DNA of 39,708 nucleotides from a virus. Where the stretch lies: positions 1 through 39,708 of the IMG/VR virus record IMGVR_UViG_3300007735_000716, one strand, 5' to 3'. This document shows positions 3,041 through 20,941 of this stretch, piece by piece; position 1 is the stretch's first letter; each line of letters begins with the position of its first letter. The notes beneath the pieces were generated by a model. It saw only the letters and a list, made by a program, of their open reading frames with translations, searched no databases and was not told the DNA's origin. The position numbers and the translations under genes were made by a program.

Positions 3041-3213
3041 GTAAAGCAAGAGACCTAGCAAACGCAGCAACAGCCCTATCGGCTGTATCTGCAACAGAGT
3101 TAGGATATGTAGATGGTGTTACCTCTGCTATCCAAACACAGATTAATACAGTAACAACAGCAGTTAACAATGTAGACGCAACACCTACAGCACTAATGAC
3201 AATGGGAGCATAA
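3037..3213 (+). CDS. 58-aa tail-fibre-related mini-protein
   Basis: GTG start within the end of the previous gene; the product is 58 aa (MSKARDLANAATALSAV...) and contains TELGYVDGVTSAIQTQIN, a motif common in phage tail fibres just before coiled-coil trimerisation segments. It ends in LMTMGA, reminiscent of the LILMGAL end of the big fibre at 1713. It could be a detached remnant or free trimerisation peptide of a fibre. The stop overlaps the next start (TAATG). Confidence 0.65.
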   Translation: MSKARDLANAATALSAVSATELGYVDGVTSAIQTQINTVTTAVNNVDATPTALMTMGA

Positions 3214-3542
3214 TGGCAACAACATATAAAGTACTGGGGCAAGTAGCCCCTTCAGCAACAACAGCAACAACCCTATATACAGTTCCTAGTGCTACCTCAG
3301 CGGTAGTATCTACTATTGCTGTATGTAATCGTGCTGCTACTGCAGCAACATATCGTGTGGCTATTCGCCCCGCTGGTGCTACATTGGCTAACCAACATTA
3401 CATTGCTTATGACTCTACAGTAGCAGCCAATGATTCAACAATGATTACTATTGGTGTAACCCTTGCTGCTACAGATGTTATTACTGTATATGCATCAACT
3501 GCTAATACTTCATTCTCAGCATTCGGAAGCGAGATTTCATAA
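3213..3542 (+). CDS. Small tail-associated protein, paralogue of the gene at 1731
   Basis: A 109-aa Thr/Ala-rich, probably all-beta protein. It aligns by eye with the 105-aa product at 1731-2048 over its whole length (TLYTVPS, VVSTIAVCNRAATAATY, TITxG-V-L-A-A-T-D). Like its paralogue it precedes a glycine-rich adhesin with a one-base TAATG overlap, so the two-gene unit has been duplicated. Probable tail-tip component; function inferred only from position. Confidence 0.75.
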   Translation: MATTYKVLGQVAPSATTATTLYTVPSATSAVVSTIAVCNRAATAATYRVAIRPAGATLANQHYIAYDSTVAANDSTMITIGVTLAATDVITVYASTANTSFSAFGSEIS

Positions 3543-8571: not shown

Positions 8572-8600
8572 TTGACAAGCATTAACCTATGGTGTATAAT
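8572..8600 (+). promoter_or_regulatory. Consensus sigma70 promoter for the replication operon, leaderless start
   Basis: TTGACA (8572-8577), a spacer of exactly 17 bases, and TATAAT (8595-8600). The expected start site, about 7 bases after the -10, coincides with the ATG at 8607, so the first mRNA would be leaderless. Leaderless transcripts are frequent in actinobacteria (established). This is the strongest promoter seen on the plus strand. Confidence 0.92.
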
Positions 8601-14308: not shown

Positions 14309-15022
14309 TTGGATATTGAACGCATTGAAAAGTGGGACTACATTGTAGTTGCTGTTGCTGCTGAGTATCATAAGAAGTTCTCTATGGTGGAACTAGAAGA
14401 TATTAAACAGTCTCTCTATCAATGGTTCGTTGAGCACCCTAATAAGTTAGATGAGTGGGAGAAGATAGGTGAGAGAGATGCAAAGAATCTTATTTATCGC
14501 AGCCTACGCAATCAAGCATTAGATTATTGTCAGCATTGGAAAGCCAAGTCTCTTGGCTACGATACTGGTGATTTATATTACTATGAACCTGAAATGGTAG
14601 AGGCTGTGTTGCCTGCTGTATTGCGTGGTGATTATGGTGTAACTCACAAGTTAAACTTAGGTCGCCCAGGTCGCCCATCTGCACCAAGTGAGGGCGGTAA
14701 TCTTACTGTAATTATGTTAGAGGTGGACTCTGCATATTGGAAGTTAAGTAAAGACGATAAGAAGATACTCTTCTTCCGCCATGCAGAGTCCTTAGACTTC
14801 AAGGAAATAGCGAATCTCCTTGAATTGTTTAGCGAGGATACAGCACGCATGAGGCACAAGCGTGCTATTCAAAGATTAGTAAATAAAATGGGTGGCTTCA
14901 AACCTTATAAAGATAAGGACTTCTCAGACAAAGAAGACCAAGAAGAAGAAGATACCATAGAACATGCTGATGATACTAGCCACAGCGAGAGTGGGAATGA
15001 GAATGGGAGCGATGAAGAGTAG
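14309..15022 (+). CDS. Sigma-70-like RNA polymerase sigma factor
   Basis: A 237-aa protein starting TTG directly after the previous stop (TAATTG). Residues about 56-80 (RDAKNLIYRSLRNQALDYCQHWKAK) look like sigma region 2. Residues about 155-205 (LSKDDKKILFFRHAESLDFKEIANLLELF...ARMRHKRAIQRL) form a region 4 helix-turn-helix. The last 40 residues are very acidic and Ser/Glu-rich. It may direct host RNA polymerase to late phage genes. The acidic tail is unusual and could be an autoinhibitory segment (inference). Confidence 0.75.
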   Translation: MDIERIEKWDYIVVAVAAEYHKKFSMVELEDIKQSLYQWFVEHPNKLDEWEKIGERDAKNLIYRSLRNQALDYCQHWKAKSLGYDTGDLYYYEPEMVEAVLPAVLRGDYGVTHKLNLGRPGRPSAPSEGGNLTVIMLEVDSAYWKLSKDDKKILFFRHAESLDFKEIANLLELFSEDTARMRHKRAIQRLVNKMGGFKPYKDKDFSDKEDQEEEDTIEHADDTSHSESGNENGSDEE

Positions 15023-16007: not shown

Positions 16008-16411
16008 TAATACCAGCCTTTCTTGCTGAAATGTTTCCACGCATTACAAGGCGTTCCATATCTATTATAAATATAAACAAGCCCTCTGTCAATCTGTTTG
16101 GTTGCTGGAAGTTTAGGGTCTAGACCTAGTAATTGTGGGATACCTCCAGCGTTCTTGCCCATAACTTTAGTCTTGTTATAGGCATCGCTTCTCCAAGCAC
16201 TTTCCTTACCCCACAATTTAACTAGGCATGTGTATTGCTCATGTTGCCAGTCTAATAACTGGTCATAAGCATATGCTTTGCTATCCTCTATTGACCACTC
16301 TTCTTCTTTTTTATTATTCATAATGGGAGTGTCTGCTATAGGAAAAGCACTAGCAAATCCAATTAAGAACGCTGCTATAATAGCAAGCGTGCTTCTAGTT
16401 TTTATCTTCAT
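16007..16411 (-). CDS. Exported lytic-transglycosylase-like protein
   Basis: A 134-aa protein with an N-terminal signal or anchor (KIKTRSTLAIIAAFLIGFASA). The mature part has LVKLWGKESAWRSDAYN with the presumed catalytic Glu (E70), then NAGGIPQL (88-94), and ends GTPCNAWKHFSKKGWY. The E-S-x-W, G-x-x-G-I-P-Q pattern is that of SLT/Rpf-like actinobacterial transglycosylases. Two cysteines (62 and 122) could form a disulfide outside the cell. It is a second lysin, separate from the late lysis cassette and in the early-type leftward operon, next to WhiB. Confidence 0.75.
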   Translation of the reverse strand: MKIKTRSTLAIIAAFLIGFASAFPIADTPIMNNKKEEEWSIEDSKAYAYDQLLDWQHEQYTCLVKLWGKESAWRSDAYNKTKVMGKNAGGIPQLLGLDPKLPATKQIDRGLVYIYNRYGTPCNAWKHFSKKGWY

Positions 16412-16818
16412 AACTCTCCAGTAATCTCTCTCACCTTGTTAGCGAATAGAACCTTGTTAATTCTGTCAGATGATTGAACAGGTTGGTTAGCCATCAGTAA
16501 TCTTTCACCTGACATTTTACCTCCCCATATACCATAATCTAGGTTCTCCCTACGCATACCCTCTTGTAAGCATAGGTCTTTTACTTCACACTTACCGCAT
16601 ATGGATAGTGCTAGTAAAGACTTGTCAATGTTCTGTTGCTTCTGTGCTTTAGTAGGACCACCTCGCCTACCTAAATCTTCTACCTCTTCTGAGAACCATA
16701 GGTCAGGGTCAGGATACCTAGCGCATAATGCTTTATTATTAAAGGTCGTAATCTCTTCACGCATACCACGCTTGACCTTTAACTTATCCCAAAACAATGC
16801 CTTTCCTGGTGCTGCCAT
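16408..16818 (-). CDS. whiB: WhiB-family iron-sulfur regulator
   Basis: A 136-aa protein with the complete WhiB signature: C32 followed by PDPDLWF (36-42), C74-x2-C77-x5-C83 for the [4Fe-4S] cluster, and DYGIWGGKMSGER (94-106). WhiB proteins bind sigma-factor region 4 and exist only in Actinobacteria and their phages, so this gene is the main host marker. It probably retargets host transcription or blocks superinfection, as proposed for mycobacteriophage WhiB proteins. Its stop overlaps the transglycosylase start. Confidence 0.93.
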   Translation of the reverse strand: MAAPGKALFWDKLKVKRGMREEITTFNNKALCARYPDPDLWFSEEVEDLGRRGGPTKAQKQQNIDKSLLALSICGKCEVKDLCLQEGMRRENLDYGIWGGKMSGERLLMANQPVQSSDRINKVLFANKVREITGEL

Positions 16819-18337: not shown

Positions 18338-19546
18338 TTACGCATTAACTAGTTCTTTACTATCTATACTTAATGAGCGCACTTTGGACATGCGCTCATA
18401 TAAGTCAGGATAGAAGCCATTGTTTGCTTCTACATATTCATAGAACCAATCCCAACCTAGCATACCTAACTTCACATCAGATATGGTAAGGTTGCGAGTA
18501 TATTCTATACTTGCGTGTGCTAATTGTATAGCACTATGAACACCACTAGGTTTAGTAGTTCCTCTAAAGAACCGCAGTTCTAGCGTGTGTAAGTTCTGCG
18601 TATTCACCGCAGAATATCTCTCGGTCATGGCTTCTCTAGGCGACTTGACCTTATCGGCTAGCGAGAAGTATGGTCTATCGTATTCGTCATACTTCCATAC
18701 ATCACTAAACTTAGCATAGTCGGACTTGCGACCTGCGAACTTCATCATCTCTGGTGCGTTCTTATAGATAAGTGTTAGCCACCTATGCGTATGCGCACCA
18801 CCCTTAAACCCTGCCCTGCTTACATGGATATGTAGTCCGCAGTTCTTAGCGTCCCATGCCCTTGCTTCGTGGTTATCTCTAAGATAATCTAAGGTCTTGT
18901 CGAACACTTTCATATTTGACCACTTGCTAAAGGATATAGGGTGAGATACTAACTCGAACCCTCTATACCCACCTGCGTTAATACTACTATCCTCTTTCAT
19001 GTAGAACCAATTACCTAGTCTATCATGAACATAGTCGGAACTACCTCGCAAATCCCCCGACCTAATCTCCATCTCTAATTCTATACCGAAGTATAGGTTA
19101 TTCTTATCTTCACCTATAAATCTAGGGTCGGGCTTGTATGAGTAGTTATGGACACGACCACCGCCATTACTTTCACCGCAACTATTACACTCACTTTCGT
19201 AGTGTTCATCACAATCATCACAGAAGGTAGAGTCATTTTCCGCACAATACTCGCACCAATACTCGCTTCTATCGTTAATCTCATACATGCTTACATTGTC
19301 GCTGTATTGGTTCTCGCAACGCTCACACCAACTACTATGATTATCAGCGCAGTATTCGCACCAAGTTCCTTCACCTTCGATATATCTGCTATTCTCAGCA
19401 TAGCAGTATTCTTCACACCGATTACAATATGCCCGACAATCTTCACATAATAGTTCATCATTGACCACTACTAATTCATCTTCGTCAGTAGTAGTATAAC
19501 TACATGAACCGCAACTATGTTCTACTTCTTCATCATCTATCGGCAT
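18338..19546 (-). CDS. Cys-rich amidoligase (glutamine-synthetase-like fold)
   Basis: A 402-aa protein. Residues 12-123 hold 17 cysteines in CxxC pairs, probably four or more zinc knuckles in repeats ending WCEYCA. Residues 150-400 match the putative amidoligase family: FGIELEME (153-160), KEDSSI (184-189), GFELVSHP (196-203), CGLHIHVS (236-243) and the N-T-Q-N-x-H-T-L-E-L-R-F-F-R-G-T block (315-330). Such enzymes form amide bonds using ATP. RBS AAGGGG and a perfect promoter lie directly upstream. The target (wall peptide, protein or metabolite) is unknown. Confidence 0.85.
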   Translation of the reverse strand: MPIDDEEVEHSCGSCSYTTTDEDELVVVNDELLCEDCRAYCNRCEEYCYAENSRYIEGEGTWCEYCADNHSSWCERCENQYSDNVSMYEINDRSEYWCEYCAENDSTFCDDCDEHYESECNSCGESNGGGRVHNYSYKPDPRFIGEDKNNLYFGIELEMEIRSGDLRGSSDYVHDRLGNWFYMKEDSSINAGGYRGFELVSHPISFSKWSNMKVFDKTLDYLRDNHEARAWDAKNCGLHIHVSRAGFKGGAHTHRWLTLIYKNAPEMMKFAGRKSDYAKFSDVWKYDEYDRPYFSLADKVKSPREAMTERYSAVNTQNLHTLELRFFRGTTKPSGVHSAIQLAHASIEYTRNLTISDVKLGMLGWDWFYEYVEANNGFYPDLYERMSKVRSLSIDSKELVNA

Positions 19547-19569: not shown

Positions 19570-19625
19570 ATTATAGCACCTTGCTATAACTTAGTCAAGC
19601 ACCTTTAGTGTGTCGTTAATCACAC
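19570..19625 (-). promoter_or_regulatory. Promoter with CRP-like site for the amidoligase operon
   Basis: On the minus strand: TTGACT (19598-19593), 17-base spacer, TATAAT (19575-19570) with TGC before it (extended -10). Nine bases upstream of the -35 is GTGTGA-TTAACG-ACACAC (19625-19608), one mismatch from the palindrome found at the 20.7-20.9 kb promoters, with the same 9-base gap as two of them. Transcription would start about 17 bases before the amidoligase ATG. The site lies inside the end of the 57-aa gene. Confidence 0.85.
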
Positions 19626-19764
19626 TATCGGCTATCTTGCTTCTTAATTCTTCTATCTCCATTACTAACACCTTGAAGTCATTACGCTTATGGCGTTCTT
19701 CTTCGGTGCGTAGTGCTTGTCTGATTACTACAAGTTCTCTCTCAGACAATTCTAAGGTTATCAT
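19591..19764 (-). CDS. 57-aa coiled-coil protein
   Basis: MITLELSERELVVIRQAL..., charged and helical (LRTEEERHKRND, VMEIEELRSKI). Starts on the stop of the upstream gene (ATGA, 19764-19761). Its last codons contain the -35 and operator of the amidoligase promoter, so upstream transcription runs through that promoter. Unknown role. Confidence 0.65.
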   Translation of the reverse strand: MITLELSERELVVIRQALRTEEERHKRNDFKVLVMEIEELRSKIADSVINDTLKVLD

Positions 19765-19979
19765 AGTTCGGCTTCTTCTTCTAAGTCTAACTCGATACCT
19801 TGATTAAGCCTATCTTCCATGCCGAACTCATAGCCACTATACCATATAGCAGTTAGTCGTTCGACCATATCTTGAACCGCCATATCATAATCGGCTATCT
19901 CAGAATTGTCTAACTCTAAGATATTAACCGCTTGTCTGACTAGTTCAGCGTTAATCTTATCTACTAGGTCATCTTCCAC
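19761..19979 (-). CDS. Hypothetical 72-aa acidic helical protein
   Basis: GTG start overlapping the preceding stop by one base (TAGTG). Sequence MEDDLVDKINAELVRQ..., helical and acidic, with Trp/Tyr in IWYSGYEFGMEDRL. No family recognised. Coupled to both neighbours by overlap. Confidence 0.6.
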   Translation of the reverse strand: MEDDLVDKINAELVRQAVNILELDNSEIADYDMAVQDMVERLTAIWYSGYEFGMEDRLNQGIELDLEEEAEL

Positions 19980-20080
19980 TATCGACCCCTATACTCTAGG
20001 CGACCTTGTAATCTATTCACTCTAGCAACTAGAGCGATAATCGCTAAGGTCTGAACTGCCACTAGTATCTCTAATAGCAT
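19979..20080 (-). CDS. 33-aa single-pass membrane peptide
   Basis: ATG with GGATAAG upstream; the product MLLEILVAVQTLAIIALVARV plus a basic tail (NRLQGRLEYRGR) is a membrane helix followed by positive residues, so N-out/C-in is likely. It is the first gene after the strong promoter at 20134-20106 and overlaps the next start (TAGTG). It could be a membrane-perturbing or superinfection peptide. Confidence 0.6.
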   Translation of the reverse strand: MLLEILVAVQTLAIIALVARVNRLQGRLEYRGR

Positions 20081-20105
20081 ATCTTATCCTCTCTACTTAT
20101 ACCTA

Positions 20106-20134
20106 AGTATAGCATACTTAGGGCTACAAGTCAA
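20106..20134 (-). promoter_or_regulatory. Leftward sigma70-type promoter
   Basis: TTGACT (20134-20129), 17-base spacer, TATACT (20111-20106) preceded by TGC. It shares GGGTGCTTGACT with the amidoligase promoter (GGTGCTTGACT). Expected start about 20099, upstream of the 33-aa membrane peptide. No CRP-like palindrome is seen; instead a tRNA-like element lies 20 bases upstream. Confidence 0.85.
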
Positions 20135-20154
20135 GCACCCTCGACTTATGGCGT

Positions 20155-20204
20155 GTCCTAGTAGGGTATCGAACCCTAAGCATACCGAACCTATCGGCTA
20201 GGAC
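20155..20204 (-). ncRNA. 50-nt tRNA-like element lacking a D arm
   Basis: On the minus strand a perfect 7-bp acceptor-like stem (GTCCTAG / CTAGGAC) encloses a 13-base hairpin (CCGA-loop-TCGG), six linker bases, and a canonical T arm: TAGGG, loop TTCGATA, CCCTA. The T loop fits the TTCRANN consensus and leads directly into the 3' acceptor strand. A D arm and a full anticodon arm are absent. It may be a degenerate tRNA, a tRNA-mimicking RNA, or a DNA palindrome acting as an operator. Confidence 0.4.
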
Positions 20205-20213
20205 TATCGGTGG

Positions 20214-20540
20214 TTAGTTATACTCACCGACTAACTTGCGATAATTCTGCGCTTGTTGCGCCTCGAACTCACGCTTGCGTTCTTCTAGGGCTATTGCCCG
20301 TAATTCATCAGCAGTTAAGGGTTTAGGGGTAGTATCGGTAGGCTTAGCGTTCTTAGCGACACGCTTAGCCAATTTAACCGCAGGACTATTCTCGACTACT
20401 GCGATTATATTGCCCGACTTATCACGCACCACGACCTCGCTGAACTTGCGTGAGCGTGAGCCTTTCCACGCTACGCTAGCCCTAACTTGTCTAGGTGGTG
20501 TGATAATACTACCCATAACCCCATAAGGGTTATAGGACAC
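20214..20540 (-). CDS. Hypothetical basic protein, first gene of the leftward block
   Basis: A 108-aa protein from GTG 20540, preferred because AAAGGTGAG sits just upstream; a GTG at 20555 would remove that RBS. The N-terminal half is beta-rich (SVAWKGSRSRKFSEVVVRDKSGNIIAVVE); the C-terminal half is basic and helical (ERKREFEAQQAQNYRKLV). It lies behind three tandem promoters and a structured leader, so probably an early, highly expressed protein. No family recognised. Confidence 0.65.
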   Translation of the reverse strand: MSYNPYGVMGSIITPPRQVRASVAWKGSRSRKFSEVVVRDKSGNIIAVVENSPAVKLAKRVAKNAKPTDTTPKPLTADELRAIALEERKREFEAQQAQNYRKLVGEYN

Positions 20541-20559
20541 TATCTCACCTTTCACTAGG

Positions 20560-20657
20560 GGTTATATGGCTAAGTAGTAGTTAGGGTCGTGATACCATAG
20601 GCGACCTACTGCTACTAGTAATCTAATCAAGCCTAACTACTGCTTAACCATATAACC
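20560..20657 (-). promoter_or_regulatory. 26-bp inverted repeat in the leader of the first leftward gene
   Basis: Arms 20560-20585 and 20632-20657 are complementary at 24 of 26 positions, one exception being a G-U wobble in RNA; the loop is 46 bases. It starts about 18 bases after the predicted start of promoter PL3 and ends next to the RBS of the 108-aa gene. Such a long hairpin in the 5' leader could control translation or termination. No U tract follows. Confidence 0.75.
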
Positions 20658-20681
20658 TTATTTAGTTTTAATTACTGCGTA

Positions 20682-20747
20682 ATTCTATCACGCTTAATTG
20701 TGTTAGTCAAGTGCGACACGCTCTAATTGGTGTGAAGTGTATCACAC
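20682..20747 (-). promoter_or_regulatory. Leftward promoter PL3 with CRP-like operator
   Basis: TTGACT (20710-20705), 17-base spacer, TAGAAT (20687-20682). The palindrome GTGTGA-TACACT-TCACAC (20747-20730) lies 19 bases upstream of the -35, exactly 10 more than in PL1 and PL2. It matches the TGTGA-N6-TCACA consensus of CRP/GlxR regulators. Downstream sequence TACGCAGTAATTAAA resembles that after PL2, indicating a duplicated unit. Confidence 0.87.
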
Positions 20748-20801
20748 GCCACTAGGCGATATATCCGAACTGCCTAACCTTATTTAATTGTGATACTGCG
20801 T

Positions 20802-20858
20802 ATCTTACCACGCCTAGATATGGAAGTCAAGTCGTGTCGGTGTGATTTACCTCACACC
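20802..20858 (-). promoter_or_regulatory. Leftward promoter PL2 with perfect CRP-like operator
   Basis: TTGACT (20830-20825), 17-base spacer, TAAGAT (20807-20802). The perfect palindrome GGTGTGA-GGTAAA-TCACACC (20858-20839) has its 18-bp core 9 bases upstream of the -35. GCGTGG directly before the -10 is shared with PL1. Confidence 0.87.
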
Positions 20859-20871
20859 ATATTAGGGCGGG

Positions 20872-20927
20872 ATTATACCACGCCACCCCTAAGAAGTCAA
20901 GTGTATATGGTGTGGTGTCTATCACAC
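20872..20927 (-). promoter_or_regulatory. Leftward promoter PL1 with CRP-like operator
   Basis: TTGACT (20900-20895), 17-base spacer, TATAAT (20877-20872). The operator GTGTGA-TAGACA-CCACAC (20927-20910) differs at one position from a perfect palindrome and lies 9 bases upstream of the -35. An SOS-box-like site adjoins it. This is the most upstream of three tandem promoters. Confidence 0.87.
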
Positions 20928-20941
20928 GAACATCTGTTCGA
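20926..20941. promoter_or_regulatory. LexA (SOS) box-like site
   Basis: ACGAAC-ATCT-GTTCGA matches the actinobacterial LexA consensus TCGAAC-N4-GTTCGA at 11 of 12 defined positions. It abuts the upstream edge of the PL1 operator, so LexA and a CRP-like protein could interfere there. It lies upstream of PL1 rather than over it, so the regulatory sign is unclear. Confidence 0.6.

Follow-up and report, generated by a model that had tools for sequence, protein, structure and literature searches.

Host regulators are already known to act on phage promoters. Host CRP does so in coliphage T1, where its effect is repression (PMC6737242), and host LexA does so in phages such as GIL01 (PMC4551915). In Mycobacterium tuberculosis, CRP bound upstream of a promoter is associated with activation, and CRP bound close to the start point with repression (PMC4117774); in addition, a GlxR site closer to the consensus gives higher ldhA promoter activity (PMC7999487). 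The open-access literature that we searched yielded no account of CRP operators in the promoters of actinophages. Here we describe candidate operators of this kind at four leftward promoters of a freshwater phage, place them among related phages and viral contigs at large, and weigh which protein might read them and with what effect.

The window, i.e. the whole stretch of DNA that was analysed, is IMG/VR record IMGVR_UViG_3300007735_000716 (39,708 bp, 42% GC). Its proteins include WhiB-like, amidoligase-like and sigma-like proteins, a DnaB-like helicase, a primase, a terminase and a major head protein; no integrase or lysogeny repressor was found in the subset of open reading frames that was scanned. 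Two of the genes lie as follows:

16408 to 16818, minus strand: WhiB-like gene (PF02467) of the leftward block, marking the phage as an actinophage
18338 to 19546, minus strand: amidoligase-like gene (PF12224), downstream of promoter PL4

DNA similarity searches among annotated phages returned no near match, and the host was therefore approached through protein searches and a link to Ca. Planktophila strain LanE-43. Two phages isolated on that strain, LanE43-AprE7 and LanE43-AprF5 (E7 and F5 below), both lyse it (PMC10202952). Since the terminase of the window is 75% identical to theirs, its host is very likely a Nanopelagicales bacterium. The LanE-43 genome (OX376642.1) was analysed whole.

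A preliminary description of this DNA had reported four minus-strand promoters with GTGTGA-N6-TCACAC or a one-mismatch form upstream, separated from TTGACT by 9, 9, 19 and 9 bp, the exception differing by about one helical turn. The coordinates bear this out, with 1, 0, 0 and 1 mismatches for PL1 to PL4. Its two perfect palindromes hold for the 6-bp arms at PL2 and PL3 and not for the N6 between them, which is not palindromic. The promoter block is arranged as follows:

20910 to 20927, minus strand: CRP/GlxR-like operator of PL1, GTGTGATAGACACCACAC, one mismatch, 9 bp to TTGACT
20872 to 20900, minus strand: promoter PL1, TTGACT-N17-TATAAT
20840 to 20857, minus strand: CRP/GlxR-like operator of PL2, GTGTGAGGTAAATCACAC, both arms perfect, 9 bp to TTGACT
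20802 to 20830, minus strand: promoter PL2, TTGACT-N17-TAAGAT
20730 to 20747, minus strand: CRP/GlxR-like operator of PL3, GTGTGATACACTTCACAC, both arms perfect, 19 bp to TTGACT
20682 to 20710, minus strand: promoter PL3, TTGACT-N17-TAGAAT
20106 to 20134, minus strand: strong promoter without operator, TTGACT-N17-TATACT
19608 to 19625, minus strand: CRP-like operator of PL4, GTGTGATTAACGACACAC, one mismatch, 9 bp to TTGACT
19570 to 19598, minus strand: promoter PL4, TTGACT-N17-TATAAT, before the amidoligase-like gene

Scored with the 18-bp motif GTGTGA-N6-TCACAC, the window contains four operators with at most one mismatch, against a Markov mean of 0.1 and a maximum of two in 200 simulations. 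The pattern TTGACT-N17-TANNNT matched five times against 0.56 expected, every time on the minus strand and inside the promoter block. The operator is not part of every strong promoter: it is absent at 20106 to 20134 (-) and, in a looser promoter scan with the flanks inspected, at the TTGACA-N17-TATAAT promoters at 8572 (+) and 16092 (-). The former of these two, a perfect promoter at 8572 to 8600 (+) with neither a CRP nor a LexA site, precedes the exonuclease, helicase and primase genes, and the replication genes thus lie outside the leftward design. At PL4, the operator and its -35 fall inside the 3' end of a 57-aa open reading frame (19591 to 19764), so that conservation there may be partly coding; the link to the amidoligase gene depends on PL4, the weakest site. 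Elsewhere in the block, the leader of the leftward transcript at 20561 to 20657 (-), just before a 113-aa open reading frame, folds back on itself as a long hairpin, with an energy of -44.8 kcal/mol and a z of -4.9; it matched no RNA family in Rfam.

The distance between operator and promoter is kept well beyond this phage. We measured it as the core gap, from the 16-bp core TGTGA-N6-TCACA to TTGAC, a core gap of 10 being equal to a gap of 9 from the 18-bp motif. Relatives were collected through their amidoligase and terminase, and their 227 unique promoters, which are not independent of one another, were searched at all spacings with up to two mismatches. Fifty operators were found at core gap 10 and eight at core gap 20, where 0.1 was expected per gap; the check proposed in the preliminary description, a search of related phages for the motif and its distance to TTGACT, thus found the placement kept. 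The operator arms are conserved in these relatives while the N6 and the flanks vary.

We then scanned 2.9 million viral contigs, allowing any core-to-TTGAC spacing between 5 and 35. At least 85 unique cases were found and, among the matches listed, 24 lie at 9–10 bp, 20 at 20–22 bp and 15 at 30–32 bp. The resultant length at a period of 10.5 is 0.60 among these matches (p < 2.1e-4, the lowest value that 5,000 simulations allow). A control with the palindrome reversed, scanned likewise, reached 0.22, and the spacing peaks therefore lie on the same face of the DNA. Pooled phage loci, which include loci chosen by the pattern, number 114 at gap 10, 70 at gaps 20–22 and 24 at gaps 31–32. In isolate E7, TTGACT follows a perfect operator at gap 31, although the -10 is poor; the two perfect operators of isolate F5 have no clear -35 next to them. 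The actinophage marker WhiB is encoded in 10 of 25 in-phase contigs and in none of 25 controls (contigs of the promoter scan, among the matches listed).

The region upstream of PL1 holds a further element that is absent from the preliminary description:

20927 to 20940, no strand assigned: SOS/LexA box CGAACAGATGTTCG, a perfect CGAAC-N4-GTTCG, one base in common with the CRP site of PL1

This 14-mer is identical to the box before recA in LanE-43 (the box before lexA reads CGAACAGTTGTTCG), and LexA is encoded in all six complete host-order genomes. PL1 thus has the sequence that marks a phage promoter under LexA/SOS control and, because its box is that of the host recA gene, LexA probably gates it; PL2 to PL4 have no LexA box. 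As the two sites at PL1 share one base pair, LexA and CRP could hardly bind simultaneously. In 20 distinct variants of the phage family, GAACA-NN-TGTTC likewise lies 0–1 bp from the operator, whose arm is then usually weakened.

The pairing is also found across viruses. Searching for GAACA-NN-TGTTC followed by TGTGA-N6-TCACA within 30 bp, a pattern of which the promoter is not part, we obtained a complete listing of 112 stretches; with 20 fixed bases and 31 spacings, chance would give about 6 matches per 100 billion bases. Within the 75 bp examined, TTGAC promoters follow these stretches at gaps of 10 (11 times), 21 (7 times) and 31 (twice) only. WhiB is encoded in 22 of the 39 contigs with the LexA-CRP pair and, taken with its frequency in the in-phase contigs and the controls, this places the promoter grammar largely in actinophages. 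Viral-wide, the distances between LexA box and CRP box cluster at 0–4, 9–10, 18–21 and 26–29 bp with few between. Dense arrays in which the two boxes alternate occur in some viral contigs (L466 at about 14340–14410, L531 at about 990–1045 and L239 at about 3160–3350) and exceed the needs of one promoter.

Two short elements close to the -35 are given as a lead:

20834 to 20838, minus strand: GACAC element (WhiA-like motif; lead only), between the PL2 operator and the -35
20715 to 20719, minus strand: GTGTC element, GACAC in reverse, at 4 bp from the -35 of PL3

In the class of promoters with a spacing of 20–22 bp, GACAC or GTGTC, often as GACACGCC or its reverse, stands at a fixed 13 or 3–4 bp from the -35, and it occurs in the last 16 bp of 23 of 64 distinct gaps against a background of 6.8%. 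The stretches of the window concerned are 20711 to 20729 and 20831 to 20839. Since GACAC is the WhiA consensus (PMC3781837), WhiA is encoded in six of six complete host-order genomes and the phage itself encodes a WhiB-like protein, a contact by WhiA or WhiB at these promoters is a lead.

Which host protein could read the operators? The preliminary description had matched them to the CRP/GlxR consensus TGTGA-N6-TCACA, which they fit, and the host clade has exactly one CRP/GlxR orthologue: each of six complete host-order genomes encodes a single cNMP-binding/CRP protein, so that CRP is the sole candidate of its family in the host. M. tuberculosis CRP (3i54) and the LanE-43 CRP can be aligned along the length of the protein (E = 1.5e-79), and the recognition helix, SRETVNKALADF, is identical in the two. 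The locus therefore has two hallmarks of a CRP/GlxR-controlled promoter, a TGTGA-N6-TCACA operator near a sigma-A promoter and a host CRP with the matching recognition helix.

The host genome itself avoids the site. With expectations that assume independent half-sites, GTGA-N6-TCAC occurs once in LanE-43 against 22.3 expected, and none of the 50,449 4-mer-N6-4-mer pairs compared is more depleted; GTGA and TCAC at spacings of 0–5 and 7–20 occur 15 to 46 times each. Three other host-order genomes, sampled at 400 kb each, are weaker singly (3, 5 and 1 observed against 9.7, 7.8 and 8.5 expected); the four pooled give 10 against 48.3, and the next lowest spacing has 30. In the phage family the same form is enriched (67 against 7.6 expected). 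Two other sources of the depletion were rejected. A codon-phase artefact is ruled out as the same-frame N3 and N9 forms are present (30 and 19), and restriction-site avoidance was rejected because in the phages the motif is enriched and its position follows the phase of the promoters. Because only the N6 form is depleted in LanE-43 while other spacings are normal, the host likely has an active protein of exactly this specificity, and stray sites would be harmful. Taken together, these sequence comparisons make it quite likely that host CRP reads the operators, whether it activates or represses.

As to the effect, we lean towards activation: host CRP would bind the four palindromes and switch up leftward, possibly early, transcription. 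The single CRP/GlxR-type protein of the host would occupy the four operators, always on one fixed face of the DNA, with one, two or three turns of the helix between it and the near-consensus sigma-A promoter downstream, and by touching RNA polymerase it would boost transcription to the left. Contact between CRP and polymerase is indicated by positions that shift by whole turns. With an assumed start site (-10 at -12 to -7, 17-bp spacer), the operator centres would be at about -53.5 for gap 10, -63.5 for gap 20 and about -74.5 for gap 31, the last in other phages. At PL1, LexA would probably compete with CRP, and the boost would be lost for as long as LexA is uncleaved. The same block would be driven by PL2 and PL3, free of a LexA box. 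Several points weigh against activation by CRP. Near-consensus promoters might not need an activator; no host promoter of this architecture was found among 151 host-family genomes, TGTGA-N6-TCACA being absent from within 35 bp of TTGAC in all of them; and a gap of 10 leaves little space for the alpha-CTD between CRP and sigma. Given that little space and the rotated positions, the contact with polymerase may differ from that of E. coli class I. Within LanE-43, operators are enriched neither upstream of genes nor near promoters (longest-ORF calls, upstream regions approximate), so the phage design has no counterpart among the host genes searched. Looping between neighbouring operators was rejected, as centre spacings of 70 and 110 bp share no multiple of 10.5.

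The same sites could instead hold the leftward promoters down, with host CRP, aided by LexA at PL1, repressing or delaying them so that they open only in certain host states, like pir of T1. The pir, dam and recE promoters of T1 are indeed inhibited by cAMP-CRP (PMC6737242), the core promoters look strong alone and LexA is usually a repressor. However, the operators lie upstream of the -35 and not over the promoter, the recurring spacings of 10, 21 and 31 bp suit polymerase contact better than occlusion, and the association of repression with sites near the start point in M. tuberculosis (PMC4117774) speaks against it as well; we regard repression as unlikely.

Unlikely too, and a shade less probable, is that the operator serves a phage-encoded regulator of CRP-like specificity and that the host protein is irrelevant. 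It would agree with the 151 genomes in which host promoters of this design were not found, and many small open reading frames of the window have no family match. Among the window proteins scanned, however, there is no CRP-family or similar helix-turn-helix regulator, only WhiB-like, sigma-like and FmdB-like proteins; the operator is found again in contigs of about 24–116 kb that encode WhiB; and a regulator of the phage would not cause the host to purge exactly the N6 form.

The preliminary description had tied early transcription of a supposed takeover block, including the amidoligase operon, to a host cAMP or nutrient sensor or to a look-alike regulator; as to cAMP and nutrients, the genomes do not support it. 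Neither a class III adenylate cyclase (PF00211) nor a CYTH protein (PF01928) was found in any of six complete Nanopelagicales genomes, in searches where control genomes including Corynebacterium glutamicum were positive, so that host-made cAMP from a class III cyclase is not in evidence. The M. tuberculosis orthologue moreover binds DNA and regulates without cAMP, which changes its binding about twofold (PMC4005916). The host CRP does retain the cNMP-binding domain and the E, R, TS and TN residues of the motif (PMC4005916), which would suit a real sensor of metabolism; all the same, such a role at the operators is very improbable. There may be another source of cAMP, such as uptake from outside, or another ligand for the host CRP. 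In the activation reading, since the hosts have no recognisable adenylate cyclase, CRP would probably be a constitutive, cAMP-independent booster. LanE-43 keeps CRP without a visible adenylate cyclase while being nearly free of GTGA-N6-TCAC genome-wide.

Chance, or common descent from a single promoter block that was duplicated and has no function, would fit the likeness of PL2 and PL3 to copies of one unit, the relatives not being independent and the overlap of the PL4 site with coding sequence, but it is already contradicted by the viral-wide spacing distribution, and since the phasing, the WhiB association and the LexA-CRP scan stem from many unrelated contigs and the arms are kept where N6 and flanks vary, it can be set aside with near certainty.

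On a wider view, we tentatively propose a grammar common to freshwater actinophages, made up of LexA box, CRP box, a gap of 10, 21 or 31 bp and a sigma-A promoter, in which cAMP-free CRP would be a constitutive activator and LexA a damage gate, and in which streamlined hosts would have purged the CRP operator, leaving the strongest sites of their CRP in viruses; the evidence leaves this broader proposal somewhat short of an even chance. Almost no transcriptional regulation is known for phages of the very abundant acI/Nanopelagicales bacteria. The sequence rule predicts promoters of these phages and names CRP and LexA as likely host inputs, and it suggests that infection could be tuned by growth state or by damage from sunlight. 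A clean case of a host genome that avoids an operator exploited by its viruses is offered as well, and so is a CRP that has been retained although no adenylate cyclase is visible. For testing, strain LanE-43 and its phages E7 and F5 are available as isolates.

To judge from the open-access literature, three things are new: the phased CRP design common to actinophages, the LexA box that is paired with it, and a host that avoids the operator. The GlxR and M. tuberculosis CRP (Rv3676) regulons share with it the TGTGA-N6-TCACA palindrome, an orthologous host protein with an identical helix and sites upstream of the promoter; here, however, the sites are in phages and strictly phased, and the hosts lack a class III cyclase and avoid the site. 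Coliphage T1, with pir, dam and recE, resembles the present phage in having promoters under host CRP, a control that is predicted here; T1 is repressed by cAMP-CRP, whereas in our case the positioning argues for activation and the role of cAMP is doubtful. In GIL01, likewise, the promoter region of a phage contains a box for host LexA (PMC4551915), but its SOS boxes lie in a lysogenic promoter and act with gp7, while here one LexA box adjoins a CRP operator and the sister phages E7 and F5 lyse their host.

The class I CRP promoters of E. coli (lac, -61.5) also place the activator upstream of a sigma70 promoter with helical phasing. Their gaps from the -35 are 17, 27–28 or 38 bp, against 10, 20–21 or 31 bp here, and the phage spacings are about 3–4 bp longer, or rotated, relative to the lac class I distance from the -35. 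Class I centres lie near -61.5, -71.5 or -82.5; the phage operators also keep to one face, but at about -53.5, -63.5/-64.5 and -74.5 with the assumed start site, and the closest of these positions would be no class I site in E. coli.
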